A stretch of DNA of 64,000 nt from Amycolatopsis pretoriensis (lineage in GTDB: Bacteria > Actinomycetota > Actinomycetes > Mycobacteriales > Pseudonocardiaceae). Positions 3,276-11,426 of this stretch are shown here, piece by piece. How positions within the stretch are numbered: the stretch's first letter is position 1; the number at the start of each line of letters is the position of its first letter. The notes below the pieces were generated by a model, which saw only the letters and a list, made by a program, of their open reading frames with translations, searched no databases and had not been told where the DNA came from. The translations under genes and the position numbers were made by a program. Where the stretch lies: assembly GCF_900107925.1 (NCBI RefSeq), contig NZ_FNUJ01000006.1:186001-250000 (forward strand), read 5' to 3'.

Positions 3276-4472
3276 TCAGCCCGGGACGACCGTGCCGCGC
3301 ACCTCCCCGAAGCCGATCCGCGTGCCGCCCGGCCCCGGGGCCGTCGCGCTGATCGCGACCTCGTCGCCGTCCTCCAGGAACGTGCGGGTCCGACCGTCCG
3401 GGAGGTCGAGCGGTTCCCGGCCGCCCCAGGACAGTTCCAGGAACGAGCCGCGCTGGTCGCGGTCCGGGCCGGTGACGGTGCCGGAGGCGAACAGGTCGCC
3501 GGTGCGCAGGCCCGCGCCGTTGACGGTCAGGTGCGCGAGCTGCTGGGGCGCCGTCCAGTACTGCGTCGCGAACGGCGGGCTGGACACGAGGTGGCCGTTG
3601 AGCCGGACCTCGATCGCCAGGTCGAGGCCCCATTTTTCGGTGGTGCGCAGGTACTCGAGCGGCTCCGGGTCCTGCGGCGGGCCGTCGACGCGCGCGTGGT
3701 CGAGCGCGGCGAGGGGGACGATCCACGGCGACACCGACGTCGCGAACGACTTGCCGAGGAACGGGCCCAGCGGCTGGGACTCCCACGCCTGGATGTCGCG
3801 GGCCGACCAGTCGTTGACCAGGCAGACGCCGAAGACGTGGTCGGCGAAGTCCGCGGTGGACACCCGCGTGCCCGGGACGCCGACGACGAAACCGACTTCC
3901 GCCTCGATGTCCAGCCGTTGCGAGGGGCCGAAGGAGGGAGCGTCGGCGGTGCGCGGTTTGCGTTGCCCGTGCGGGCGGACGACGGGGGTGCCGGACGCGA
4001 CGACCGTGCCCGCCCGGCCGTGGTAGGCGATGGGCAGGTGCTTCCAGTTCGGCGGCAGCTCGGCGGCGTCGGGCCGGAAGATCCGGCCGGCGTTGAGGGC
4101 GTGCTGTTCGCTGGAGTAGAAGTCGACGTAGTCGGCGACCTCGAAGGCGAGGTGCGTGGTGACTTCGGTCAGCGGGTGCAGGTGCGGGCGGAGCTGGTCG
4201 GCGTAGCGGGGTTCGGTGAGCCAGTTCCGGAGGGTTTCGCGGACCTCCCGCCAGGTGTCCGGCCCGGCGGCGAGGAGGGGGTTGAGGACCCCGGCGGTGA
4301 GCAGCGGGGCGAAGGGGGCGGCGGTTTCTTCGGCTGCGGCGGTCAGGTCCAGGACGTGGTCGCCGAGGGGAACGCCGATGCGCCGCTCGAGCGCGCCGGC
4401 GATGGAGAAGGCGCCGTAGGGCAGGTTTTCCAGGCCGAAGGGGGTGTCGTCGGCGAGGTCGAGCCAGGTCAA
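3276..4472 (-). CDS. fahA: fumarylacetoacetase
   Basis: Catalyses hydrolysis of 4-fumarylacetoacetate to fumarate and acetoacetate, the last step of tyrosine/homogentisate breakdown. The 398-residue product shows the N-terminal SH3-like part (LTWLDLADDTPFGLENLPYG) and the FAH metal site: YVDFYSSEQHA, DIEAEVGFVVG and VNDWSARDIQAWE. I chose the TTG at 4472, because GAGGAG lies seven bases upstream and homology begins there; the longer frame to 4733 would translate through the GC-rich repeat tract. No homogentisate dioxygenase lies nearby, so the pathway is probably completed elsewhere. Confidence 0.93.
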   Translation of the reverse strand: MTWLDLADDTPFGLENLPYGAFSIAGALERRIGVPLGDHVLDLTAAAEETAAPFAPLLTAGVLNPLLAAGPDTWREVRETLRNWLTEPRYADQLRPHLHPLTEVTTHLAFEVADYVDFYSSEQHALNAGRIFRPDAAELPPNWKHLPIAYHGRAGTVVASGTPVVRPHGQRKPRTADAPSFGPSQRLDIEAEVGFVVGVPGTRVSTADFADHVFGVCLVNDWSARDIQAWESQPLGPFLGKSFATSVSPWIVPLAALDHARVDGPPQDPEPLEYLRTTEKWGLDLAIEVRLNGHLVSSPPFATQYWTAPQQLAHLTVNGAGLRTGDLFASGTVTGPDRDQRGSFLELSWGGREPLDLPDGRTRTFLEDGDEVAISATAPGPGGTRIGFGEVRGTVVPG

Positions 4473-4889
4473 GGGAGCTCCTCGGGGTCGAATGTCCGCA
4501 ATGGACGGTGGCCGGCCGGGTGCGGGCGGCGCCCGGGGTGGGGCGGCGCCGGTATGGGGCGGCGCCGGTGCGAGGCGGCACCAGTGCGGGGCGGCGCTGG
4601 TGAAGCCGCGCATTGCCGGCGGGCCGGGCGCCGCCCACGGGGCCGGGCGCCGCCCACGGAGCCGGGCGCCGCCCACGGGACCGGGCGCCGCCCACGGGAC
4701 CGGGCGCCGCCCACGGAGCCGGGCGCCGCCCACGGGACCGGGCGCCGCCCACGGGACCGGGCGCCGCCCACGGGACCGGGCGCCGCCCGCAAGGCCGGCC
4801 GAGGCACCCGCGCCGCCGGCCGGCCAGGTCGCCGACCGGCCCCGGCGGCTGGGTGGAACCAGCTCCCCCGCCGCCGGGCCCGGCCGGCT
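4473..4889. repeat. 19-bp GC-rich tandem repeat tract
   Basis: Nine head-to-tail 19-bp units run from 4624 to 4794. The consensus starts CCGGGCGCCGCCCACGG and ends GA, AG or GG; the ninth unit is diverged. Each unit holds an 11-base interrupted palindrome (GGGCG-C-CGCCC). Upstream, 4543-4600 holds about four copies of a different 16-17 bp unit built on GGGGCGGCGCCGGT. The tract separates the start of fahA from the end of the DUF885 gene. All long reading frames across it (Pro/Arg/Gly-rich) are repeat translations and I do not call genes here. Confidence 0.9.
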
Positions 4890-7800
4890 TCACTTCGCGC
4901 GCGCCGCCACCCACTCGGACACCACGTCCGCCAGGACCGGGAGCGGGACCGTTCCGCTGCCCAGCACCGTGTCGTGGAACTCGCGGATGTCGAACCGATC
5001 GCCCAGCGCCCCCTCCGCCTCCGCGCGCAGCCGCTCGATCTCCAACCGGCCCACCATGTACCCGAGCGCCTGGCCCGGGTGGCCCGCGTACCGGTCGATC
5101 TCCGCCTCGATCTCGATGCGGGCCATCGGCGTGTTCTCGACCAGGTAGTCCACCGCCCGCTGCCGGCTCCAGCCCAGCGCGTGCAGGCCCGTGTCGACCA
5201 CCAGCCGCGCCGCGCGCATCGAATCCTGCGTCAGCAAGCCGAAGCGGGACACGTCGTCCGAGTACAGCCCCATCTCGTCGGCCAGCCGCTCCGCGTACAG
5301 CCCCCAGCCCTCGGCGTACGCGTTGAACATGCCGATCCGGCGCAGCAGCGGGACTCCCGTCAGCTGCTGCGCCAGGCTGAGCTGGAAGTGGTGCCCCGGC
5401 ACGGCTTCGTGGAACGCCACCGACTCCCCCAGCGTCCGCTGCCGCTGGTCGGCCTCGTGCGTGTTCGCGTAGTACGTGCCCGGGCGGGAACCGTCCAGCG
5501 ACGCGTCGATGTAGTACGCGATCGAGCCGCTCTCCGCCTCGGCGGGCGGCACCGGCGCCACCTCGCACTTCTGCTCCGGAACGCGCAGGAACCACTGCGG
5601 GGCGACGGCTTCCGCGCGCGCGATCGTCGCCCGCGCCGCGTCCAGCAGCTCGTCGCCGTCGCGCCAGCGCAATGCCGGGTCCGTGCGGATCCGCTCGAAG
5701 ATCTCCGCGAGGTCCGTGGTGCCGAACACCTTCGACCCCAGCTCGCGGTACTCCTCCGCCAGCTGCTCGATGATCGCCAGCCCGGTGTCGTGCAGGTCCT
5801 GGGCCGTGCGCTCGGTCGTCGTCTCCGCGCGGATCAGCGCCGCGTAGCGCTCCGGGCCGCCCGGCAGGTCGCCGATGCCCGGCGAGGTCTCCGGCCGCGA
5901 AACCGGGACGACCTCGTCGGCCAGGAAGTCGCGGTAGCGCGCGTACGCGGGCCGCACGACCTCGTCGAGCAACCGGTCGCGCTCGGCCTCGAGGCCGTGG
6001 ACCGGCACCTTCAGCGGGTCGCCCTCCGGCGCCGCGAGGTACCGCTCGACGTAGCCGATGCCGATGCGCGCCAGGAACTCCGGCGGCGTCAGGCCTTCGC
6101 CGAGCGCAGCCCGCTGCCGCTCGATCAGCTGGTCCAGGTACGTGCCGACCGCGCCGAGCCGGCTCAGGTAGCCGCGGGCCTTGGTCTCGTCGTCGAGCAC
6201 CGTCTGCGGCAGCATCATCAGCAGTTCCAGCGCCGGCGCGGCCAGCCCGTCGCTCACCGCGAGGTCCGCGCGGCCCGAGTCCAGCGTGTCGATCAGCGTG
6301 CGGGCCTGCCAGACCACGACATCCCGGGTGACACGCTCGGCCGGCGGCAGCTCGCCGAGCGCCTCGGCCCGCGCGATCAGCGCCGCGAACCCGGCGCGTT
6401 GCCGGGCGGCCGCCTCGGCGGACTGGTCGGCGAGCTTGTCGTGCGCGCCGGGCAGGCCGTAGAGCGACGGCAGCAGCGGCTGCGCCTCGAACATCAGCTC
6501 CAGGCACTCGTCGGCCAGCCGGTCGGCGGTGTCGCCCTGGGCCGCGACCCAGTCCGTGACGACCTTCGCCAGCGCCGAGAGCGGCAGCATGCCGTGGCCC
6601 AGCACGACCTCGTGGAACGCGCGGATGTCGAAGCCGTCGCCGAGCGCCTCCTCGGCCTCGGTCCGCAGCCGCTGGATCTCCAGGCGCCCCACCATGTACC
6701 CGAGGGCCTGGGCCGGCCAGCCGGCGTACCGGTCGATCTCGGCCTCGATCTCCAGCCGCGCCATCGGCGTGTTGTCGACGAGGTAGTCGATCGCCCGCTG
6801 CCGGCTCCAGCCCAGCGCGTGCAGGCCGGTGTCGACGACGAGCCGGCCCGCGCGCATCGAGTCCTGCGTCAGCATGCCCAGGCGCGCCACGTCGTCGGAG
6901 TAGAGGCCCATCTCGTCGGCGAGCCGCTCCGCGTACAACCCCCAGCCTTCGGCGTAGGCGTTGAACATGCCGATCCGCCGCAGCAGCGGCAGGTCCGTCA
7001 GCTCCTGGGCCAGGCTGAGCTGGAAGTGGTGCCCCGGCACGGCTTCGTGGAACGCGATCGCCTCGCTGGTGAACCGCGGGCGCTTGCCGGCCTCGTACGT
7101 GTTGGCGTAGTAGGTCCCCGGCCGCGTCCCGTCGAGCGACGGCTGGAGGTAGTACGCGATCGTGCCGCTCGCCGCGTCGGCCTCGGGCACCGGTGCGACC
7201 TCGCACTTCTCCGCCGGGATGCTCGAGAACCACCGCGGTGCCACGGCTTCCGCGCGCGCGATGGCGTCGCGGGCCGCGGCCAGCAGCTCTTCGCCGTCAC
7301 GCCAGCGCAACGCCGGATCGGTGCGCAGCCGTTCGAAGATCTCGGGGAGCTCGCTGGTGCCGAACACCTTCTGCCCCAGCTCGCGGTACTCGTCCGCGAG
7401 CTTCGCGATCAGCGCCAGCCCGGTGTCGTGCAGGTCCTGGGCCGTGCGCTCGGTCGTCGTCTCCGCGCGGATCAGCGCGGCGTACCGCTCCGCGCCGCCC
7501 GGCACGTGGCCGATGCCGGGCGCGGTGTCGGGCCGGCCGGCCGGCTCGACCTCGGTGCGCAGGAAGTCCCGGTAGCGGGCGTAAGCCGGGTGGACGACCT
7601 CGGCGAGCAGCCGGTCGCGCTCGGCTTCGAAGCCCTCGACGTCCGCGGTCGTGCCCACCTTCAGCGGGTCGGACTCCGGCGCCGCCAGGTAGCGGTCGAT
7701 GTACTCGACGCCGACGCGGGCCAGGTAGGCCGCCGGCACGAGCCCGTCGGCCAGGCTTTCGCGCTGCCGCTCGGTCAGCTGCTCCAGGAACGTCGCGCTC

Positions 7801-9845
7801 GCGGCGAGCCGGGCCAGGTAGCCGCGGGCCTTCTTCTCGTCGTCCAGCTTGTAGTACGGCAGGTACAGCAGCAGGCCCAGCGCGGGCGCGGTCAGCCCGT
7901 CGCTGACCGCGATGTCGGCGCTGCGGGCACCGAGCCGGTCGGCCTCGACCTCGGCGGCCGCGACGACGACCTCGCGCGTCACGGCCTCTTCCGCCGTCAG
8001 CCCGTCCGCGGGCAGCGCGCGGGCACGGGCGGCGAGCTCCCGGTAGGCGGTGCGGTACTTCTCCTGCGCCGCCCGGCTCTGGTCGGCGAGCCGGTCGTGG
8101 TCGCCGGGCAGCCCGAAGACCGACGGGAACAACGGCTCGTGCTCGAAGGTCAGCTCGACCAGCTCGGCGGCCAGGCCGTTCGCCGTGTCGCCGTGGCCGG
8201 CCACCCAGTCGTCGACAGCGGAGGCGAGCGCCGACAGCGGCAGCGCACCCCCGGCGAGCACCAGGTCGTGGAACGCGCGGATGTCGAACCGCGAGCCGAG
8301 CCGCTCCTCGGCGCGGGCGCGGATCCGCTGGATCTCCAGCCGCCCCACCATGTACGCCAGGGCCTGGCCGGGCCACGCGATGTACCGGTCGGTCTCCGCC
8401 TCGATCTCCACCCGGGCCATCGGCGTGTGCTCGGCGAGGTAGTCGACGGCCTGCTGCCGGCTCCAGCCCAGGGCGTGCAGGCCGGTGTCGACGACCAGCC
8501 GGCCGGCCCGCATCGAGTCGGCGGTCAGCATGCCCAGCCGCGCGACGTCGTCGGAGTACAGCCCCATCTCCTCGGCGAGGCGCTCGCTGTAGAGGCCCCA
8601 GCCCTCGGTGTAGGCGGTGAAGGTGCCGATGCGGCGCAGCAGCGGCAGGTCGGTCAAGCCGGTCGCGACGCTCAGCTGGAAGTGGTGCCCCGGCACGGCT
8701 TCGTGGAACGCGACCGACTCGGCGGAGTGCCGGAACCGCTCGGTGGCCTCATAGGTGTTCGCGAAGTAGATGCCCGGGCGGGAGCCGTCGGCGGCCGGGC
8801 GCAGGTAGTACGCCGGGGGCGCGCCGGGCGCGGCTTCCTCCGGCACCGCTTCGACCTGGCACGGCTGCGACGGCACGGTCCCGAACCACTTCGGGGCCTC
8901 GGCGGTCGCGCGGGCGACGGCGGTGCGCGCGGTGTCGAGCAGCTCCTCGGCGTCCCGCCAGCGCAGCGCGGGGTCGGTCCGCAGGCGCCGGAAGATCTCC
9001 GCCAGGTCGTCGGTGCCGAACACCCGCTGCCCCAGCTCGCGGTACTCGGCGGCCAGCGAGTCGATGATGTCGAGCCCGGTCCGGTGCAGCTCCTCCGGCG
9101 TCCGGTCGGTGGTCGTGTGCACCTTCGCCAGGCGCGCGTACGCCTCGTCGCCACCCGGCAGCCACTTCAGGCCGGGCTGCTCGGCGGGGCGGCCGTGCGG
9201 CTGGACGTCGGTGACGAGGAACTCGCGGTACTCGGCGAAGGCCGGGCGGACGACGTCGGCGAGCAGCTCGTCGCGGCGGCGCTCGAACTCCTCGTCCGGG
9301 GCCGGCTGGCGGCGCAGCGGATCGGTGGCGGGGTCGGCGAGGTAGCGGTCGAGGTGCGCGACCGCGGCCTCGACCAGGTGCGCCACCGGGGTGCGCCCGG
9401 CGGCGATCCCCTCGGCGTGGCGCCGGGCGGCCTGGCGCAGGTACGCCGGGATGGCGGCGAGCCGGCCGAGCTGGGCCTCGGCGGTGTCGCCCGCCGAGAC
9501 GGTCGCCATCGGCAGCGCCATCAGCAGCGACGCCGCGGGCGCGACCATGACGTCGGTGACCGTGAACTCCGTCATCCGGCTGTCGATCGTGGCGATGCGG
9601 TCTTCCGCCGTCGCGATGAGGACTTCGCGCGTGACGCGGTCCTCGGCCGACAGCTCCCCGGCGTCCAGCGCGCGGGCCCGCTCGGCGAACGCCGCGAGCG
9701 TGGCCCGGTGCGCCTGTTCGGCTTCGGCGGACAGGTCCGGCAGGCCGGGCTCAGCCGGGCGAATGCCCAGTAGGGCGGGCGTCAGCGGATCGGCGGCGAA
9801 CAGCGCTTCGACGAACTCCTCGGCGAGTTCGGTGACCGCGGTCAT
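4890..9845 (-). CDS. triple-domain DUF885 peptidase-like protein
   Basis: One uninterrupted 1651-residue frame contains three full DUF885 units, each about 550 residues, the usual size of a whole family member. The putative metal-site motif HEAVPGHH starts at residues 381, 933 and 1479, a spacing of 552 and 546. Each is followed by a conserved (T/A)EGWGLYxERLA(D/E)EMGLYSDDV segment that could supply the third ligand. Each unit also repeats an N-terminal part (LADQS...), a RYxAxP...DPLK part, EYRELG(Q/S)KVFGT and a C-terminal VGRLEIxRxR...DIRxFH part. Units 2 and 3 are closest to each other. No signal peptide or stop is seen at the junctions, so a cytoplasmic polyprotein-like enzyme is expected. 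The family is annotated as peptidase-like with poorly known substrates. The start ATG at 9845 has only a weak GGGGG upstream. Confidence 0.9.
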   Translation of the reverse strand: MTAVTELAEEFVEALFAADPLTPALLGIRPAEPGLPDLSAEAEQAHRATLAAFAERARALDAGELSAEDRVTREVLIATAEDRIATIDSRMTEFTVTDVMVAPAASLLMALPMATVSAGDTAEAQLGRLAAIPAYLRQAARRHAEGIAAGRTPVAHLVEAAVAHLDRYLADPATDPLRRQPAPDEEFERRRDELLADVVRPAFAEYREFLVTDVQPHGRPAEQPGLKWLPGGDEAYARLAKVHTTTDRTPEELHRTGLDIIDSLAAEYRELGQRVFGTDDLAEIFRRLRTDPALRWRDAEELLDTARTAVARATAEAPKWFGTVPSQPCQVEAVPEEAAPGAPPAYYLRPAADGSRPGIYFANTYEATERFRHSAESVAFHEAVPGHHFQLSVATGLTDLPLLRRIGTFTAYTEGWGLYSERLAEEMGLYSDDVARLGMLTADSMRAGRLVVDTGLHALGWSRQQAVDYLAEHTPMARVEIEAETDRYIAWPGQALAYMVGRLEIQRIRARAEERLGSRFDIRAFHDLVLAGGALPLSALASAVDDWVAGHGDTANGLAAELVELTFEHEPLFPSVFGLPGDHDRLADQSRAAQEKYRTAYRELAARARALPADGLTAEEAVTREVVVAAAEVEADRLGARSADIAVSDGLTAPALGLLLYLPYYKLDDEKKARGYLARLAASATFLEQLTERQRESLADGLVPAAYLARVGVEYIDRYLAAPESDPLKVGTTADVEGFEAERDRLLAEVVHPAYARYRDFLRTEVEPAGRPDTAPGIGHVPGGAERYAALIRAETTTERTAQDLHDTGLALIAKLADEYRELGQKVFGTSELPEIFERLRTDPALRWRDGEELLAAARDAIARAEAVAPRWFSSIPAEKCEVAPVPEADAASGTIAYYLQPSLDGTRPGTYYANTYEAGKRPRFTSEAIAFHEAVPGHHFQLSLAQELTDLPLLRRIGMFNAYAEGWGLYAERLADEMGLYSDDVARLGMLTQDSMRAGRLVVDTGLHALGWSRQRAIDYLVDNTPMARLEIEAEIDRYAGWPAQALGYMVGRLEIQRLRTEAEEALGDGFDIRAFHEVVLGHGMLPLSALAKVVTDWVAAQGDTADRLADECLELMFEAQPLLPSLYGLPGAHDKLADQSAEAAARQRAGFAALIARAEALGELPPAERVTRDVVVWQARTLIDTLDSGRADLAVSDGLAAPALELLMMLPQTVLDDETKARGYLSRLGAVGTYLDQLIERQRAALGEGLTPPEFLARIGIGYVERYLAAPEGDPLKVPVHGLEAERDRLLDEVVRPAYARYRDFLADEVVPVSRPETSPGIGDLPGGPERYAALIRAETTTERTAQDLHDTGLAIIEQLAEEYRELGSKVFGTTDLAEIFERIRTDPALRWRDGDELLDAARATIARAEAVAPQWFLRVPEQKCEVAPVPPAEAESGSIAYYIDASLDGSRPGTYYANTHEADQRQRTLGESVAFHEAVPGHHFQLSLAQQLTGVPLLRRIGMFNAYAEGWGLYAERLADEMGLYSDDVSRFGLLTQDSMRAARLVVDTGLHALGWSRQRAVDYLVENTPMARIEIEAEIDRYAGHPGQALGYMVGRLEIERLRAEAEGALGDRFDIREFHDTVLGSGTVPLPVLADVVSEWVAARAK

Positions 9846-9904
9846 GGGCAGGACCCCCAGCTTTCGGTGTTGTGCTCCTCAGCCGACCCTAACGGAGATC
9901 ACCG

Positions 9905-10440
9905 ACAAGAACGGTGAGCCGCCGGGCGGGACCGGCGGCGGCGCGGGTGGATCGGCGAGGTGGCTATGCCGGGCGCGGGCGGCGTGAGCACATCGGCGAA
10001 GCAGCCACCGCCGGGGACGGCCGGCGCGGGCAGATCGGCAAGGCGGTCCCGCCGGGCCCGGCCGGCGCAGGCGGGCGCGGGGCGGCGCAGCCGGGCAGGC
10101 CGGCGCGGGTGGATCGGCGAGGTGGCTATGCCGGGCACGGGCGGCGCAAGCGCACCGGCGAAGCAGCCACCGCCAGGATCTGCCCGCGCGGGCAGATCGG
10201 CAAGGCGGACCTGCCGGGCGCGGGCGGCGCAGGCGGATCAGCAAGGCCGCGCCGACGGGCAGGCCGGTGCGAGTGGCGCGGGTGGATCGGCGAGGTGGCC
10301 CTGCCAGGCACGGGCGGCGCAAGCACATCGGCGAACCAGCCACCGCCGGGCACGGCCAGTGCAGGTGGGTGCGGGCGGCGCAGGTGGATCGGCAAGGCGG
10401 CGACCCCGGGCGGGGCCGGCGCGGGCGGATCGGTGAGGCG
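9905..10440. repeat. GC-rich minisatellite of ~160-170 bp units
   Basis: The intergenic tract between the divergent DUF885 gene and the 10455 gene. A block beginning GCGGGTGGATCGGCGAGGTG recurs at 9943, 10105 and 10278 (spacing 162 and 173 bp). Each copy is followed by a variant of CGGCGAAGCAGCCACCGCC near 9993, 10157 and 10330. Shorter related words (GGGCAGATCGGCAAGGCGG and variants) occur between them, so the large unit probably arose from a ~50-60 bp subunit. Frames here on both strands are Pro/Ala/Arg-rich repeat translations and are not called. Confidence 0.85.
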
Positions 10441-10454
10441 GTAGCGTTCAGCGG

Positions 10455-11426
10455 GTGGCCGTGACCGATCCCGTGGACATCCGCCTGCTCGCCGCGCTCG
10501 CCGAACTCGGCAAGATCGCGGTGCACGAGCTGGCGGCCAAGGTCGGCATGGATCCCCGCGAGGTCGCCTACCGGCTGGTGGCGCTGTCCGGCAGCGGGCT
10601 GCCGCTGCTCGTCGGCGTCGAAAGCGATCCGCAGGGGTTGCGCGCGGCGATCGCGGGCGCGCCGCCGTCTTGGGCGAACCGGCCGCCGCAGCAGTTCGCG
10701 CCGCCGTCGCACCCGGTGCCCCAGCAGCCCGCCCCGCCGATGCCGCCCGGCCCGGGTCCGCAGGGCGTGCCGTCGGGGCCGTACAACGTGCAGGGCGCAC
10801 CCTCCGGCCCGTACACCGTCCAGGGTGCGCCTTCGGGGCCGTACAACGTCCAGGGCTCGCCGTCCGGGCGGTACCCGGGCCCGCCGCCGCGCCCCCAGTT
10901 CGCCCCGCCGCCTGTCCCGGTCGACCCCGTCGTGAGCACGTGGGGCCTGCCGCAGACGGCGTCGTGGGCCCGCGGCGACGAGCCGGCCCGCCCGGCCGGC
11001 ACCGGCAAGCGGGGCAAGCTCGGCGAGGTCATGGAGACCCAGGGCCTGGAGGGCGAGCAGCTGTCGGTGCAGCTGCTCGAGGTCCAGGACCCGGCGGACT
11101 ACCTGTTCGGCGCCGCGGGCTACCGACTGGAGGCGGGTGAACGCGCGGTCGTCGTGCACACCGAGATCACCAACCGCGGGGCGGTCCCGTTCGCGTCCCT
11201 GCCGGACAACTACCTCGAGCTGCTCGCCACCGACGGCACCGCGATCGGCAAGGCGCCGGTGTCGCTGACGTCCCGGCCGCCGCACAAGATCGGCGTCAAG
11301 CCGGGCGAAACCCTGGGCGGCCACACGGTGTACGTCCTCCCGGACGCCACGCGGGTGGTCTCGGTCCGCTGGAGCCCGCGGCCGGAGCCGGACGAGCGCA
11401 CGCTGACCTGGTCGATCGAGGACTAG
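10455..11426 (+). CDS. HTH protein with [10 protein letters not shown] repeats and a C-terminal beta-rich domain
   Basis: A 323-residue protein in three parts. Residues ~5-60 form a Lrp/AsnC-like HTH ([20 protein letters not shown]). Residues ~75-155 are a Pro/Gly/Gln-rich linker with about three tandem decapeptides of the type [10 protein letters not shown]. Residues ~175-323 are a compact domain with [11 protein letters not shown] and [10 protein letters not shown], similar in style to DUF4352-type immunoglobulin-like folds. There is no signal peptide. The GTG at 10455 has no Shine-Dalgarno; TAGCGT at 10442-10447 places a plausible leaderless start there. Its stop overlaps the rluD stop tail to tail (CTAG). 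The biological role is unknown. Confidence 0.75.

Follow-up and report, generated by a model that had tools for sequence, protein, structure and literature searches.

How a single bacterial gene comes to encode several complete copies of a domain that most members of its family carry only once, and what such a chain may do, is the question raised by a locus in the 10.3-Mb genome of Amycolatopsis pretoriensis, which was analyzed within a window of 64,000 nucleotides (the whole stretch of DNA under study, to which the coordinates in Table 1 refer). The gene in question is one open reading frame of 1651 codons with an ATG start and no internal stops. In a Pfam scan, DUF885 (PF05960) was the sole family matched by its product, in three stretches and at 1522.9 bits, where the cut-off is 32.4. 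An earlier reading made from this DNA alone, hereafter the sequence-only reading, had described three full DUF885 units in one protein, each with HEAVPGHH (at residues 381, 933 and 1479) and an EGWGLY block. This description is correct in every part, and the HE..PGHH and EGW.LY.E motifs are present in all three units. The units had further been described as joined with neither stop nor spacer, which is true of the stops and only nearly exact for the spacer, as ten residues separate the W of one unit from the 'LA' of the next. Identity at the protein level is 58.6% between units 1 and 2, 57.5% between units 1 and 3, and 71.8% between units 2 and 3, the last two being the most alike, as had been noticed before. 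The three-unit build departs from the single-unit architecture of most DUF885 members seen, which is the common architecture and not a membership rule of the family. Inspection by eye revealed no signal sequence in the protein. Three more single-unit DUF885 genes scoring above the cut-off are present in the same genome (G000:C11:127775-129370, G000:C19:96241-97788 and G000:C23:883904-885361).

Table 1. Features of the three-unit DUF885 locus, with positions in the window
Feature	Position	Strand	Basis or remark
Three-unit DUF885 gene (units A, B1, B3)	4890..9845	-	ORF and Pfam
Unit 1, type A, residues 1-551	8193..9845	-	domain bounds; type by trees
Unit 2, type B1, residues 553-1103	6537..8189	-	domain bounds; B tree, segment identities
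Unit 3, type B3, residues 1105-1650	4896..6533	-	domain bounds; B tree, segment identities
A/B junction VAGHGDTANG, 10 residues, 548-557	8175..8204	-	
B1/B3 junction VAAQGDTADR, 10 residues, 1100-1109	6519..6548	-	
HEAVPGHH, unit 1, residues 381-388	8682..8705	-	
HEAVPGHH, unit 2, residues 933-940	7026..7049	-	
HEAVPGHH, unit 3, residues 1479-1486	5388..5411	-	
EGWGLY.E, unit 1, residues 414-421	8583..8606	-	
EGWGLY.E, unit 2, residues 966-973	6927..6950	-	
EGWGLY.E, unit 3, residues 1512-1519	5289..5312	-	
Divergent neighbor with AsnC-type HTH	10455..11426	+	locus marker, not counted into the enzyme
Fumarylacetoacetase-family gene, downstream	3276..4733	-	not counted into the original system

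The fused multi-unit gene is real and conserved. At 69–88% DNA identity between its long repeat copies, the units do not represent a single stretch that was collapsed or expanded, and expansion or collapse during assembly is ruled out by the 58–72% protein identity between units together with orthologues in single-contig genomes. Indeed, three-unit orthologues spanning residues 1 to 1649/1650 were found in five other genomes at 90, 89, 87, 86 and 81% identity, one of them (L058) on the complete chromosome of Amycolatopsis sp. 2-2. Single-contig assemblies contain both three units (G030, G047, G055 and G059) and four units (G025, G037 and G040).

Within the Amycolatopsis genus, the fused junction was detected in 64 out of 80 genomes and is absent in 16, as judged by the best E-value of matches to the whole-junction model. 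Architectures were read at the locus in 77 of these genomes (G617, G622 and G633 were left out), and comprise 35 two-unit, eight three-unit and 19 four-unit genes, two frame-broken fused genes, and 13 unfused loci, including nine '1+1' pairs, one '1+1+1' arrangement (G033) and three single genes, one of which (G011) lies close to a contig end. The three-unit protein is one step of a two-, three- and four-unit series at one Amycolatopsis locus and no lone oddity, which is what the proposed search for other multi-DUF885 proteins and for copy-number changes in relatives brought to light. The sequence-only reading had regarded many relatives with the same protein as a point against itself; relatives with fused genes are numerous, yet they confirm the protein instead of refuting it. 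In the two frame-broken genes, L111 of G053 (5111-8736, two-unit) and L174 of G628 (3816-10485, four-unit), the break lies inside a B unit and reflects either sequencing error or decay. Since two of the 64 fused genes are broken in this way and 16 of the 80 species are unfused, the fusion is not essential.

Beyond the genus, the junction was searched for in samples of 120 family, 200 order, 296 class and 198 phylum genomes, all inside the phylum to which Amycolatopsis belongs. No stop-free fused junction outside Amycolatopsis was present among the matches listed for the family, order and class samples, where the order-level query was a single sequence and the lists were ranked, so that a very divergent fusion could escape, and none was found in the 198 genomes of the phylum sample. 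Among the Amycolatopsis members of these samples, the stop-free junction was recovered in five out of five family and eight out of eight order genomes, as well as in G000 in the class and phylum samples. The sole junction-spanning row outside the genus among the matches listed for the family sample, from G161, has a stop inside and represents two genes. Sixteen loci from 15 genomes outside the genus, picked for matches in long open frames or adjacent pairs, contained no multi-unit DUF885 ORF, all of their DUF885 ORFs being single-unit. Adjacent pairs of single-unit genes occur in other genera at L188 (G088), L189 (G117) and L190 (G161); one of these pairs has a GTGA overlap, and in another the second gene follows a single stop without a change of frame.

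The phylogeny of the units points to an older gene pair as the source of the fused gene. In a tree of 46 A, 44 B and 15 C sequences, rooted with the third paralogue group C, types A and B each form one clade (SH 0.90 and 1.0, respectively; L123, L069 and L114 were typed by hand from the all-unit tree). In every fused protein of the all-unit tree, the first unit is of type A and the later units are of type B. Among 23 junctions between separate genes, A/B or B/B (11 from Amycolatopsis and 12 from other genera), 22 have a four-nucleotide ATGA/GTGA overlap in which the frames are offset by 2, the exception being L112; the older A/B gene pair was probably translationally coupled. All fused B units group in a single clade (UFB 100), and the separate B genes of G033 branch just outside it (UFB 99), suggesting one fusion, which is not certain because the unfused A gene of G033 is placed among the A units of two-unit proteins (weak support of 0.486 in the all-unit tree). 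A single fusion event, ancestral to the majority of the Amycolatopsis sampled, is the probable scenario.

The spacing from W to 'LA' is ten residues in 82 out of 83 fused junctions, and 'DT' is invariant in 25 aligned fused junctions, which is the pattern that copying of the later units along with their junction would leave. The lone exception, the second junction of L088 (G030), which is a form without B3, has 12 residues. Among the separate pairs, the corresponding gap equals 2 mod 3 in 17 of the 18 measured, and it amounts to 29 nucleotides in three family pairs, where a net gain of one nucleotide would suffice for the ten-codon spacing of the fused genes. A one-base deletion within the start/stop overlap was considered as the route to fusion and rejected, since the frames need a net change of +1 or -2. 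In G033, an A gene and two B genes are all separate and joined by ATGA overlaps (L091, 5036-9947); these B genes pair with one another in the B tree as nearest relatives, which identifies their duplication as an independent expansion of B. Among 24 family loci with an A-type gene, an author-chosen subset, 12 have no B gene within the approximately 12 kb fetched.

The three units of the A. pretoriensis protein find their place once the B units are resolved. The B tree separates B1 (UFB 96), B2 (100) and B3 (100), and joins B2 with B3 (98). The second units of three- and four-unit genes belong to B1, the third units of four-unit genes to B2, the fourth to B3, and unit 3 of the 1651-residue protein falls inside the B3 clade. 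In the trees of units against homologues, a comparison that had been suggested, unit 1 is of type A and units 2 and 3 are of types B1 and B3. The same assignment emerges from DNA identities to the four-unit genomes, where unit 2 is nearest to B1 in 13 out of 13 segments and unit 3 is nearest to B3 in 12 out of 13, with one tie with B1. A hybrid unit 3 generated by crossover within B2/B3 is not seen, as none of the ties involves B2. The split between B2 and B3 predates the separation of three- and four-unit species (UFB 100, 100 and 98). Thus, unit 3 is the B3 of a B1-B2-B3 series from which B2 is missing, and not a recent duplicate of unit 2 as the sequence-only reading had implied. Its more general proposal of stepwise duplication stands insofar as units 2 and 3 are the younger duplicates, whereas the first step was the fusion of the older tandem genes A and B. 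Another three-unit form, A-B1-B2, occurs in G030 and G632, and the existence of two kinds is best accounted for if each lost a different whole unit. Because three-unit forms do not group together among the B1 units of the B tree and the branching order of species with three and four units has poor resolution (supports of 32–78 at many deeper nodes for neighbor genes and of 37–71 at some unit-A nodes), the loss of B2 may have occurred on more than one occasion.

The gene neighborhood supports this history. The divergent HTH gene accompanies all 13 four-unit, all five other three-unit, all 31 two-unit and all five '1+1' loci, as well as 12 out of 13 '1+1' loci of the family, and by this shared side, in a record with some gaps, the fused gene is orthologous in position to the separate pairs. 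For example, rluD and lspA are present at 13/13 four-unit, 5/5 other three-unit, 29/31 two-unit, 3/5 '1+1' and 10/13 family '1+1' loci. Family loci with a single gene have the HTH gene in 11 out of 27 cases and another paralogue type in 15 out of 27. Within flanks of limited length, the fumarylacetoacetase gene was found beside all 13 four-unit, all five other three-unit and the only '1+1+1' loci, at none of the five '1+1' loci, and at only 12 of the 31 two-unit loci, and therefore it was not counted into the original system. A functional link to the DUF885 gene would be weak at best, and it may be a clade marker rather than a functional one. A 19-bp GC-rich tandem repeat (4620-4788, 8.9 copies, 94% match) lies between the two genes. 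The fumarylacetoacetase ORF as listed (485 aa) runs into this repeat and its Pfam match begins at residue 102, which suggests that the gene really begins downstream of the repeat. A second array, with periods of 41, 83 and 162 bp, occupies 9934-10357, upstream of the DUF885 gene and between it and the divergent HTH gene.

It should be asked whether the fused forms are anything other than a by-product of recombination, in which fusions and changes of copy number arise by indels and unequal exchange and persist for want of counter-selection. Exchange between repeats of 69–88% DNA identity could produce the gain and loss of whole units, such as the missing B2 or B3, and the two frame-broken copies agree with such a scenario; however, the presence of fused forms in 64 out of 80 species and the constraint on the units make it improbable. 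Indeed, the motif residues H, E, P, G, H, H and both E are kept in 200 out of 200 aligned units (82 A, 103 B and 15 C). A stricter motif pattern failed in only four out of 249 units, specifically, both fragments of G053 as well as the second unit of L137 and that of L141, where the variation falls within EGW.LY.E. The dN/dS ratios, which are rough since a GC3 of 97% makes dS unreliable, are 0.15–0.33 per unit against four other three-unit genomes, with medians of 0.19–0.31 per unit over 78 four-unit pairs. The argument that selection rather than decay maintains all three sites is supported by these approximate ratios and by the retention of every motif; the processive or multi-substrate enzyme that the sequence-only reading proposed may be what is maintained.

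This constraint is unevenly spread along the units. Between units 1 and 2, nonsynonymous and synonymous differences are nearly equal over amino acids 1–180 (0.417 vs 0.412), and are 0.156 vs 0.315 from amino acid 361 to the end; among all units of the 1651-residue protein, the two kinds of difference are alike over amino acids 1–180, and the C-terminal nonsynonymous difference is at most half of the synonymous one. This pattern suggests that the N-terminal third may be a diversified recognition part over a conserved catalytic part, and makes it one place to look for DUF885 specificity. The difference between types A and B is spread out, as just three columns reach 90% or more in both types, the clearest exchange being His143 in A for Gln in B.

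Models built by AlphaFold2 from alignments of the window and fetched sequences gave a pLDDT of 93.4 and a pTM of 0.87 for A+B, and a less certain result for B1+B3 (92.6 and 0.71). In the A+B model, the junction is confident and consists of about five loop residues between helices 537–549 and 555–569. We read the pTM of the A+B model as a sign that A and B may be held in a fixed arrangement; the junction appears unlike a floppy linker. The nearly constant junction length and its 'DT' would also suit a polyprotein that is cut at the junctions into single-unit enzymes. We consider this extremely unlikely, since the constancy would follow from one ancestral fusion and subsequent copying with no need for cleavage, and the modeled junction leaves only the short loop between its helices.

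The same A+B model, with the overlapping A and B genes at 22 out of 23 junctions in relatives, would also fit a single-chain form of an obligate A:B complex, where fusion fixes stoichiometry and folding, and extra B units add dose, all units having one common task and no specificities of their own; the separately duplicated B genes of G033 would suit a demand for more B. However, B1, B2 and B3 keep distinct N-terminal thirds and form separate clades, and half of the fetched family A loci lack a nearby B, so that dependence of A on B does not appear to be universal. On balance, we regard this explanation as rather unlikely.

We favor, at a probability of roughly 0.6, a cytosolic multi-active-site metallopeptidase-like single chain, in which A and B were fused, B was amplified, B2 was lost, and the units differ through their N-terminal third. 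Its units, motifs, junctions, unit types and constraint are read directly from sequence; the origin of the fused protein is well supported, and we infer its function. An older gene pair, A followed by B with a four-nucleotide overlap, would have fused, probably once; the B part would then have been copied inside the fused gene to yield B1, B2 and B3, and the lineage of the A. pretoriensis gene would have lost B2 as a whole unit, leaving A-B1-B3. Each unit would bind a metal and cleave peptides, A and B would pack in a fixed manner that sets several active sites side by side, and the units would differ in the substrates accepted by the N-terminal third while the catalytic C-terminal part remains alike. 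A bolder version, which we put forward tentatively as possible and short of an even chance, is a rigid one-chain peptidase array in which the old partner A is followed by B units that can be added to, each having an intact active site and a substrate window of its own, and in which the number of units changes between species by whole units. If true, the array would be a peptide-trimming line of adjustable length. The locus preserves, in one genus and at one syntenic position, a near-complete series from separate genes through two-unit fusion to four units and loss to three. The natural two-, three- and four-unit forms render the origin of multi-site enzymes, and the worth of each added site, directly testable.

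With respect to known systems, Foldseek searches with the A+B and B1+B3 models retrieved the DUF885 structures 3o0y, 3iuk and 3u24 (E of about 2e-12 or better; TM of the units 0.75–0.87 of target), consistent with the DUF885 fold. The B1+B3 model alone also matched, weakly and far behind these, 5wvu (E 5.2e-3, TM 0.43 of target), a Thermus thermophilus carboxypeptidase that we take to be of the M32 class. The M32 peptidases have an HExxH zinc motif. In HEAVPGHH, counting from the first His, Pro occupies position +4 and the next His residues are at +6 and +7; as the second His of HExxH is missing and Pfam reports DUF885 only, the Amycolatopsis protein was not filed under M32 despite the weak resemblance in fold. 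In the excerpted text of a zinc-site prediction study, HExxH is given for the Peptidase_MA clan, and DUF885 is placed in that clan (PMC12572635). The Pfam entry of DUF885 still reads 'unknown function', and no DUF885 assay is described in the excerpts of PMC12572635, PMC11479980 and PMC8478523.

Multi-domain peptidases are found in other families. Somatic angiotensin-converting enzyme (M2) has two catalytic domains that arose by internal duplication and differ partly in substrates; it is a eukaryotic, membrane-bound protein of two units, unrelated in sequence to the DUF885 protein. Carboxypeptidase D is a membrane protein with an inactive third domain. Three tandem carboxypeptidase domains of the M14 family per chain are reported for it in the excerpted text of PMC9925722. 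This number equals that of the Amycolatopsis protein, which belongs to an unrelated family, keeps the motif in all three units and, by eye, has no signal sequence. The closest relatives are the PF05960 structures 3o0y, 3iuk and 3u24, which match in sequence and unit fold but have chains of one unit (546–609 residues), whereas the Amycolatopsis chain has three. Among the papers listed for DUF885, PF05960, Amycolatopsis with DUF885, and fusion or overlap, no multi-unit DUF885 protein was met, and the multi-unit chain gives a known domain family an architecture that is new for it.
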